A DNA stretch of 64,000 nucleotides from Thalassospira xiamenensis M-5 = DSM 17429 (GTDB taxonomy: Bacteria; Pseudomonadota; Alphaproteobacteria; Rhodospirillales; Thalassospiraceae). Shown here in pieces: positions 34,924-38,561 of this stretch. The stretch spans positions 1,469,501 through 1,533,500 of the forward strand of contig NZ_CP004388.1 of NCBI RefSeq assembly GCF_000300235.2, read 5' to 3'. The translations under genes and the position numbers were made by a program. The notes under the pieces are model-generated. The model was not told where the DNA came from, made no database searches, and saw nothing but the letters and a program-made list of their open reading frames with translations. How positions within the stretch are numbered: position 1 is the first letter of the stretch; each line of letters starts with the position of its first letter.

Positions 34924-36291
34924 TTATCCCTCAGCGATTGGCCCCTTGGGGCCCAAAGCCAGGGCTATTTTCTTGATGTTTTGGGCGGCGGCGGCCAGCA
35001 GACATTGGCATTTGACATTGATCAGTCCCCGGAACCTTGCATATCGATTACCGTGAAGCTGTTTGGCATCTGCAAAAGAGCGTTCGACCGTCTCTTTTCG
35101 GCGCTTGTAAACCCGCTTGCCCCACTCTGTCAGACGATAGGCGTCAGCCCGGTCTCTGGCGTCTTGCCAGACATGGCGCGTGACAGTTTTTCGGTGGTGG
35201 GCATTGGCGGTACAGGAAGCCAGCACAGGACAGGTGCGGCATTTTTCCGGGTCGCTGTGATAATGGCGGTATCCATTTCGGTCGGTTGTCGCATAAGACA
35301 GAAGCTGACCTTCGGGGCAGCGATAAGCATCACGTTCAGGGTCATAAACGTATTTGCGTTTGGGGATGTAGCCTTCCCGAAGGTTCGGGCGGCGATAACC
35401 CGTCACGCCAAGGATGTCGCGATCTTCAAGGCCTTTGGCAATCGCGGCGGTCGCATAGCCCGCATCCAGTCCGACGGCGATAACATCAAGGTCAAAACGC
35501 TGCCTTTGTCGGTCAAGACGGTCGAGATAGGGAATACTGTCATGCAGATTGGCCGGGGTGGCGTAACTGTCGGTAATGATCCCAAGCTTGCCATCGACCG
35601 TGCGGTGATCGAGATAGAAAAAGCCCTTGGGCTTGCCGTCGCGCACCATATATCCGCTGTCGGGATCGGTTCGGCTGATCTTGGTTTCTTTCTCAACCGG
35701 CTGGCGTTCCTTGGCTTTGAGCGGCTTTTTCGCATGAGCCGCCCGGTCTTCCTCAATCGCCAGATCCAGATCATCCCAATAGGCCGCGCGCGATTTGGCA
35801 ACCACTTCGCGGTCCCATTTGTTCTTGTTGGCATCGGCCTTCAAATGCGTGCTGTCGGTATAGAGAACCTTACCATCCACCAGCCCGTGCCTGATCGCCT
35901 GCTCGACGATCTCGTCAAAAATATCCTGCGCAACACTGGCATCATGATATCGACGCCGCCGGTTCTGCGACAGGGTCGAGGCATCAAAGACCTTGTCGGT
36001 CAGCTTGAGTTGCAAAAACCAGCGATAGGCGACATTGACCTCAATCTCGCGCACAAGCTGGCGCTCCGAGCGCACGCCAAACAGATAGCCAATGAACAGC
36101 GCCTTAAACATCATCACCGGATCAAGGGCGGGACGGCCATTGTTCGCGCAGTACAAATCGGCCACGCGCGCATGGATAAAACTGAAATCGATCACGGCAT
36201 CGATCTTACGAAGCAAATGATCGCTGGGGACCAAACTGTCGAGTGTCACCATCTCAAGTTCGGTTTGATGTGGGCTGGGTTTCTTAAGCAT
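34924..36291 (-). CDS. IS1182-family transposase
   Basis: About 455 residues with an N-terminal DUF772-type domain (about 15-95; MVTLDSLVPSDHLLRKIDAV, then GRPALDPVMMFKALFIGYLF) and a DDE catalytic domain. Likely acidic residues are in VLYTDSTHLKADANK, VGLDAGYAT and ERSFADAKQLHGN. A cysteine-containing segment (YRCPEGQLLSY; CRTCPVLASC) between them is usual for this family. I start it at the ATG at 36291; an in-frame TTG at 36306 is also possible. The frame is intact, so the element may still be active. Confidence 0.93.
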   Translation of the reverse strand: MLKKPSPHQTELEMVTLDSLVPSDHLLRKIDAVIDFSFIHARVADLYCANNGRPALDPVMMFKALFIGYLFGVRSERQLVREIEVNVAYRWFLQLKLTDKVFDASTLSQNRRRRYHDASVAQDIFDEIVEQAIRHGLVDGKVLYTDSTHLKADANKNKWDREVVAKSRAAYWDDLDLAIEEDRAAHAKKPLKAKERQPVEKETKISRTDPDSGYMVRDGKPKGFFYLDHRTVDGKLGIITDSYATPANLHDSIPYLDRLDRQRQRFDLDVIAVGLDAGYATAAIAKGLEDRDILGVTGYRRPNLREGYIPKRKYVYDPERDAYRCPEGQLLSYATTDRNGYRHYHSDPEKCRTCPVLASCTANAHHRKTVTRHVWQDARDRADAYRLTEWGKRVYKRRKETVERSFADAKQLHGNRYARFRGLINVKCQCLLAAAAQNIKKIALALGPKGPIAEG

Positions 36292-36309
36292 TCCCCATTG
36301 AATCAAAAA

Positions 36310-37718: not shown

Positions 37719-38561
37719 TCACAGCATATCGCGCTTGGTGTGCGGGTTTGCCACCTCGTGGGTGCCGATCAGTTTGGCCTGATGGCGGGCAAGGATATCT
37801 TTGGCGCGGTTTTCCGTTGTGTCGTCGGGTGTCTGAACCCATAGCAACAACCCGTTGTCATCAAGCTCGTCCTGCAATTCGCCGGAATATTTTTTGCCGA
37901 TCATGGCGGCGACCACACCGCCCGCCGCAGCACCGATGCCACCGGCACCGACGATGGCGGCAATGGTTGGTGCAATCGGGCCACCCGCGGCGATCATGAC
38001 GCCTGCGGCACCAAAGGCGGCGGCATACATGGGGGCACCGACCAAGACGCCCTCCGCATTGCCAATCGGGGTGGGGGCGGTATAGGCAAGCGGGGGCATG
38101 TCGGGATCGTTATCGATATCTTCGACCTTGCGATAGATATGGCCGAGTTTGTCTTCGATGGTGCGTTCGGTCGCAAGCAGGCTTAAAGCGTTTTGTGTTT
38201 AATCTGCTCCATTATGTTTGTTTTTGGCGTGCTGTTTGGCAAGGCACAGCGTGCAGAGCGATGCGGCGCATCGGTCAAACGGTGTAACGCCGCGAAACGC
38301 CGCCAAAAACAAACCCTTTGGGCCGGGATAACCTTCCGCCCCACAGCGTCAAGACCCTAGAACGTAGCCCCGGCTACGTCCTGCGGCTCTTTCCTCGTTG
38401 GACAGAAGGTTCTCTCCGGCAAAATGGTGCAGATTAAACACAAAACGCTTTAGGTCGGAATGTTTGAAACCGGCTTCTTCCAGATCCTCTGCGGTTTTTT
38501 GCAGGGCCGGAAGGTCATGAAAAACGCCAACGGTTTCGTTTCGGGTCCTGAGGATGGACAT
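37719..38561 (-). pseudogene. Small stress-type membrane protein gene split by a MITE
   Basis: The 5' part (38561 back to 38453) encodes MSILRTRNETVGVFHDLPAL and about 18 more residues ending HSDL. The 3' part (38183 back to 37719) continues SLLATERTIEDKLGHIYRKV and then a Gly/Ala-rich hydrophobic segment (MYAAAFGAAGVMIAAGGPIA, AAIVGAGGIGAAAGGVVAAM) and a charged tail. Removing the 265-bp element plus one TA copy joins the two in frame, giving a product of about 190 residues. The layout (short N-terminal domain, glycine-zipper membrane stretch) resembles general-stress proteins with a DUF1269-like or YflT-like start, but I am not sure of the family. As it stands the N-terminal piece reads into the element and stops at 38349. 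Confidence 0.82.
38186..38450. mobile_element. MITE-like element flanked by TA
   Basis: 265-bp element without a gene. Its ends are inverted repeats beginning AAGCGTTTTGTGTTTAATCT: the first 22 bp match perfectly and 30 bp match with two mismatches. It is flanked by a TA on each side (38184-38185 and 38451-38452), the target duplication made by IS630/Tc1-mariner transposases. Inside the left half, GTTTGTTTTTGGCG (near 38216) pairs with a complementary run near 38300, and a short palindrome (ACGTAGCC/GGCTACGT) lies near 38362. No parent transposase is present in this window. Confidence 0.88.

Follow-up and report, generated by a model that had tools for sequence, protein, structure and literature searches.

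A TA-flanked 265-bp MITE interrupting a Thalassospira gene belongs to an Alphaproteobacterial family whose ends vary yet stay matched

A small gene of Thalassospira has been interrupted by a 265-bp MITE belonging to a family that keeps one architecture over many Alphaproteobacterial genera, in which the ends, the part that a transposase reads, vary yet stay matched to each other. MITEs are usually viewed as short-lived derivatives of one IS. We think that the present elements are mobilised by IS630-type transposases and that their arms are homogenised by template switching within hairpins, a reading to which we assign a probability of about two-thirds. Insertion sites that species share would then document, in nature, how hairpins homogenise and invert the element, and would make it possible to ask directly if an element without a transposase of its own can, by template switching, go on fitting new ones. 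Many genomes, moreover, owe broken genes and very stable hairpins to this family.

RESULTS

The element splits a gene that is uninterrupted in close relatives

The window, i.e., the whole stretch of 64,000 nucleotides that was analysed (Thalassospira, G000:C1:1469501-1533500), holds the element between two pieces of a gene (Table 1). A first-pass annotation made from the letters alone had described a 265-bp element with 22-bp perfect ends and a TA on either side, and our check of the sequence agrees: the first 22 bp form a perfect inverted repeat, and with the TAs included the inverted arms (38184-38216 and 38420-38452) comprise 33 nt that are 94% complementary. The homologue search returned 10 loci, all of them Thalassospira records. 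Nine cover the insertion site (L056-L064) and all nine lack the insert; the tenth, L065, begins downstream of the site and is uninformative there. Where the window reads CCGACC-TA-[265 bp]-TA-AGCCTG, three of the nine (L056, L057, and L064) show CCGAYC-TA-AGCCTG. Given that these empty sites hold a single TA, the gene was cut by a 267-bp insertion that duplicated TA, which argues against mobilisation by a RAYT (Y1 transposase). In L056 and L057, which at 95% protein identity are the closest relatives found, the reading ...EEAGFKHSDLSLLATERT... continues uninterrupted across the site, and insert plus one TA amounts to 267 bp, or 89 codons, in line with the earlier claim that their removal restores the frame. 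With its inverted ends, duplicated target, many copies, and absent transposase gene, the element has the features of a MITE.

Insert and TA together have a length divisible by three, which would also fit a conserved part of the gene. This explanation can for practical purposes be dismissed: the homologue alignment shows the site empty in every record that covers it, copies occur elsewhere, and the open reading frame on the gene strand (38349-38561) ends within the element. Judged by the empty sites, the insertion is younger than the split from L056 and L057, the closest relatives found, and it is in this sense only that the annotation's word "recent" can be retained. Its "inactivated stress-type membrane protein" likewise holds in part. 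The gene is truncated, being present in its own genome as two pieces that flank the element (tblastn with the homologue), while the product is a sub-threshold hint: the intact homologue had ActD (E 0.051) and YflT (E 0.078) as its best Pfam matches, neither reaching the cut-off, and nothing up to E 0.1 in NCBIfam. We therefore regard the family of the gene as uncertain. The sole other match in the same genome (G000:C1:4360907-4361206) is a distant relative with 32% identity (E 1e-4). A different mobile element lies about 2 kb from the MITE, represented by a 460-aa transposase with DDE_Tnp_1_6 and DUF772 domains (34924-36306, minus strand).

Table 1. Features of the element and its insertion site (window coordinates)
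Feature	Position	Strand	Basis or remark
265-bp MITE, transposase gene absent	38186..38450	+	longest stop-free stretch 57 codons
Target-site duplication TA, left	38184..38185	.	one TA in empty sites L056, L057, L064
Target-site duplication TA, right	38451..38452	.	empty-site comparison
P1 terminal stem, left arm (terminal inverted repeat)	38186..38213	+	inverted-repeat search, fold, alignment
P1 terminal stem, right arm	38423..38450	-	inverted-repeat search, fold, alignment
Hairpin P2, core of covariance model R1	38216..38313	+	fold, alignment, model match
Mini hairpin, P2/P4 junction	38314..38320	+	fold
Hairpin P4, probably a diverged inverted P2 copy	38321..38420	+	fold, alignment; R1 on opposite strand
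Interrupted gene, 5' piece (homologue residues 1-38, tblastn)	38451..38561	-	
Interrupted gene, 3' piece (homologue residues 33-191, tblastn)	37719..38185	-	

Ends vary between copies and match within them

The annotation had proposed a search for other genomic copies, and these are plentiful. One further full-length copy and fragments are present in the same genome, and matches were obtained in 26 of the 29 genomes from the genus (all but G005, G020, and G024) and in 4 of 31 other genomes, some of these matches being partial. From 101 loci that were scored, 94 copies were analysed after L233 (unmatched) and L019, L196, L199, L210, L231, and L232 (duplicate, short, or rearranged) had been dropped. 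Copies measure 251 to 268 bp, and 91 of the 94 fall between 262 and 266 bp. A TA stands on both sides in 58 and is missing from one or both sides in 36; this is a count of flanks alone, TA duplication being backed by the empty-site comparison for the window copy.

End positions 1 to 4 are near-invariant ([A/G]AGC). Positions 5 to 13 comprise 52 distinct left 9-mers among the 94 copies, and still the left and right ends of a copy agree at 8.34 of these 9 positions, against 4.90 with the right ends shuffled (2,000 shuffles, maximum 5.43); these two means include L046 with misplaced ends, and the counts of length, TA, and position 7 use the corrected L046. Position 7 is mismatched in 22 of the 94 copies, 10 of which are among the 12 of genome G026, so that amplification does not require a perfect end match. 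The G026 copies (L197-L209) form a burst with closely related ends, RAGC[A/G]TATTTCYTTTAATA plus a variant with G. Genome G003 has 12 distinct left 9-mers in its 12 analysed copies. The 94 copies occupy many different sites, 13 groups of them being orthologues. Matches to TAGAGCAACTGACTTTTAATC had been considered as solo element ends and were rejected, as all three loci tested (L066, L077, and L086) proved to be tRNA-Lys genes.

Paired changes in a stable fold

The window copy is predicted to fold into a terminal stem, P1, that encloses hairpin P2, a mini hairpin, and hairpin P4, with z-scores of -10.6 for plus-strand RNA, -11.8 for minus-strand RNA, and -10.8 for plus-strand DNA (0 of 200 shuffles in each case). 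Aligning the 94 copies shows that both sides have changed in 58 of the 80 predicted pairs. Covariation counts on alignment A3 lean towards the model that aligned it and are not taken as proof. Counted as events, in a single parsimony reconstruction for which the one tree used was built with the outer P1 columns left out, two-sided Watson-Crick changes outnumber one-sided ones in the 21 pairs of outer P1 (120 versus 66), and the reverse is seen in inner P1 (9 versus 29), P2 (29 versus 105), and P3/P4 (45 versus 86). One-sided events in P2 are skewed on the plus strand, with 69 leading to G-U and 19 to A-C. The corresponding figures are 31 to 27 in P3/P4, 10 to 9 in inner P1, and, as a weak bias, 28 to 16 in outer P1, and at unpaired sites the per-base rates of C>T and G>A are about equal, with no bias like that of P2. 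The skew hints at selection on P2 of the plus strand as RNA or as a single strand, and template switching alone is insufficient to explain it.

Stems that are under selection as a transcribed functional RNA, the paired changes being ordinary compensatory mutations, would account for the P2 skew and its want of a counterpart at unpaired sites, for the many pairs changed on both sides, and for z-scores of about -11. We nevertheless hold this explanation to be unlikely. The wobble bias is unclear outside P2, or weak in the case of outer P1, and in P1 and P4 pairs have been swapped by transversion-type changes for which wobble intermediates are few (e.g., columns 12-273 and 158-243). The hairpin inversions described below are events at the DNA level. 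Moreover, Rfam returned no gathering matches in five outside loci, and the element itself was unmatched up to E 1; one sub-threshold hit, sR30 (E 0.11), lies near the element and outside its borders.

Model R1 also scores 33.6 bits on P4 of the window copy, on the opposite strand, and head-to-head R1 matches were found in 6 of 6 Thalassospira loci tested and in 31 of 58 outside loci. P4 is thus probably an inverted copy of P2; we go no further than "probably" because P2 is palindromic and matches its own reverse as well.

Changes in place and inversions at shared sites

Thirteen loci are common to more than one species (17 pairs). Taking one pair per locus, we find 10 paired positions at which both arms have changed and are still Watson-Crick, compared with 0.60 expected if the arms changed independently (Poisson p 9e-10, a value that is too small given that the 10 are confined to 4 of the 13 loci and that neighbouring changes may be single events). 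Three further two-sided differences were excluded from the 10, not being Watson-Crick in both copies. Changes in one arm number 40 in the same comparison, and this excess of one-sided changes, in place as in inner P1, P2, and P3/P4, speaks against template switching.

Inversions are seen as well. At the locus represented by L049 and L050, the whole element has opposite orientations in the two species, and 3 of the 94 copies have an inner hairpin with an inverted spacer, L024 and L208 (P4) and L216 (P2), in the case of L208 by comparison with its near-twin L209. L055 was left uncounted, as it appeared inverted in one of four tests and then through its match to the inverted L216 alone. In yeast, template switching between inverted repeats has been described by Abraham and Hazkani-Covo with precisely such outcomes, arm homogenisation and spacer inversion (PMC8604942). 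By analogy, we infer that the same enzymology acts in these elements.

IS630 elements as candidate movers

Of the 29 same-genus genomes, 9 have a match to DDE_3 (IS630-type). Relatives of the IS630 found in the window's own genome were detected in 75 of the 317 genomes searched in the order. This IS630 (L118) is about 1,050 bp long and TA-flanked, with ends AAGCACGTCGCAT and AAGCGTGTCGCAT; an in-frame stop splits it into 84 + 232 codons (L118:1060-2013). In genome G010 the 232-codon part recurs at 100% identity. The left end of L118 equals that of MITE copy L036 at 12 of the first 13 bases (by eye), including all of positions 5 to 13, and fits L036 better than it fits the window copy. More generally, TA-flanked [A/G]AGC ends were recovered at 16 of 34 IS630 loci, two of which represent one IS. 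Compared with the best MITE end over positions 5 to 20, the IS630 ends agree at 10.7 of 16 positions, versus 7.1 for 21 control TA[AG]AGC sites of the window (p 8e-8, from 30 ends of 15 IS, the two ends of an IS not being independent); the IS ends had been selected by their likeness to each other and not to the MITE.

These similarities make IS630 the likely mover. The annotation's assignment to the IS630/Tc1-mariner type gains from the TA duplication and from the presence of an IS630 with related ends in the genome, but the exact ends of the window copy were not found on any IS630 among the loci examined. Both of the annotation's own grounds for refutation fail: the homologues that cover the site lack the 265 bp, and other copies as well as an IS630 with related, TA-flanked ends are present. 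Furthermore, 19 of the 26 MITE-matching same-genus genomes lack a DDE_3 match (in G009 a relic of an IS630 persists, whose ends were not recovered), implying that the helper has been lost, resides elsewhere, or was missed. For ISY100, a bacterial IS630/Tc1-type element, binding of the ends is ascribed to an N-terminal helix-turn-helix domain of the transposase (PMC2170065).

Conceivably, transposition by itself could keep the ends matched, if many IS630 transposases, each with an end sequence of its own, moved copies whose two ends fitted beforehand and nothing happened after insertion. Species-specific bursts with closely related ends (G026 and G027), the identity of L118 and L036 at positions 5 to 13, and the general resemblance between IS and MITE ends would all follow from such a scheme. 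It is weakened by the joint changes that 4 of the 13 fixed loci display and by G003, which combines a different left 9-mer in every analysed copy with the absence of an IS630 match in the searches for both DDE_3 and relatives of the own-genome IS630, and we consider it very unlikely to be the whole explanation.

Occurrence beyond the genus

For R1, 85 P2 sequences remained as input after identical ones and L216, L179, and L213 had been removed, and the model was made from 45 (44 of them random). In the order, 118 of the 317 genomes have a match, in 53 of 115 genera, with 26 of the 118 belonging to the window's genus. A sample of 385 genomes from the class contains 37 with a match, of which 2 are Thalassospira; a match to the P2 model is not equivalent to a whole element. 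Among 30 outside loci of a first set, 27 have matched ends, of which 23 are 259 to 270 bp long and 17 have TA on both sides (counted by eye, with L271 and L272 being one element and the end search giving a small bonus for TA). In the class set of 29 loci, 16 have matched ends (15 at 259 to 270 bp, 14 with TA on both sides) and 13 have none. Two base shuffles of the loci yielded matched ends in 0 and 1 of 30 and in 0 and 1 of 29. As within the genus, the ends of the outside copies vary between most loci and match within a copy. The element thus appears to be a member of an old and large Alphaproteobacterial family with a fixed fold that is apparently unnamed. Other length forms exist, namely, L270 (169 bp), L290 (160 bp), L284 and L285 (314 bp), and also L232 and L233; the short forms may hold a single hairpin.

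DISCUSSION

The reading that we favour combines two processes. A non-autonomous MITE of the IS630/Tc1-mariner type would have entered a TA of a small Thalassospira gene and truncated it; the insertion and its TA duplication are directly visible, and the transposase is deduced from the ends. When DNA of the element becomes single-stranded, for example in replication, it could fold on itself, and a polymerase that switches template in the hairpin would either copy one arm onto the other or invert the sequence between the arms. Template switching of this kind would allow the ends to drift and still remain matched. At fixed loci both arms are observed to have changed jointly, and the enzymology behind this is conjectural. 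Copies whose ends happen to fit a resident IS630 might then amplify, giving rise to species-specific bursts. The copies with a TA missing from one or both sides, the mismatches at position 7, and the many MITE-bearing genomes that lack a DDE_3 match weigh against this reading.

A bolder variant treats the family as class-wide mobile DNA whose helper reads mainly the TA, the GAGC tip, and the folded terminal stem, such that paired ends may drift freely, with P2 acting in addition as a plus-strand RNA needed by the host or the element. We mention it as a speculation to which we give little credence.

Among the closest known systems is RUP of Streptococcus pneumoniae, a MITE of IS630-Spn1 that is likewise non-coding, has a TA target, and carries IS630-like ends (PMC2229807). 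RUP is, however, 107 bp long, whereas the present family has about 265 bp, three stems, and matched ends that are specific to each copy. The Correia/NEMIS and ERIC repeats are small elements with terminal inverted repeats and 5'-TA-3' ends, and are set apart by their description as occurring in other hosts and measuring less than 200 bp (PMC2229807). CIR of Caulobacter and Brucella is itself an Alphaproteobacterial intergenic repeat, described as two hairpin arms with a linker and TA termini (PMC2229807). At about 110 bp it has a conserved GANTC, a motif that is absent from the window copy and present in 8 of the 94 copies, which rules out membership of the CIR family. REPINs of Pseudomonas are hairpins formed by inverted dimers, in which compensatory changes on the two hairpin sides are reported to be common, but their ends are highly conserved and tied to RAYTs, in contrast to the variable ends and TA target seen here (PMC3116915). 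The IS630 elements L118, L126, and L139 resemble the MITE in their TA-flanked [A/G]AGC ends, with which they are related over about 20 bp, and differ from it in length (about 1,050 bp) and in encoding a DDE_3/IS630-family transposase (L118). No report of the family was found in searches of open-licence papers, and it may have been described elsewhere; a review of prokaryotic MITEs published in 2024 does not appear to show it, and the words "IS630" and "Alphaproteobacteria" are absent from its main text (PMC10969869).

Copies also seem to be lost. The genome of the window contains at least five solo 21-mers of the form TAAAGC..TTTAATC that have no mate, compared with one match for a control pattern written backwards. 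At one locus where G003, G004, and G017 have a full element, G012 and G016 carry a solo end of 21 bp, so the solos there are deletion remnants, and by extension we take solo ends to be such remnants at least in part. G005, a genome without a match to the full element, nonetheless carries a solo end, which it shares with G028 at the same place (L072/L073) in surroundings that are 98% identical.
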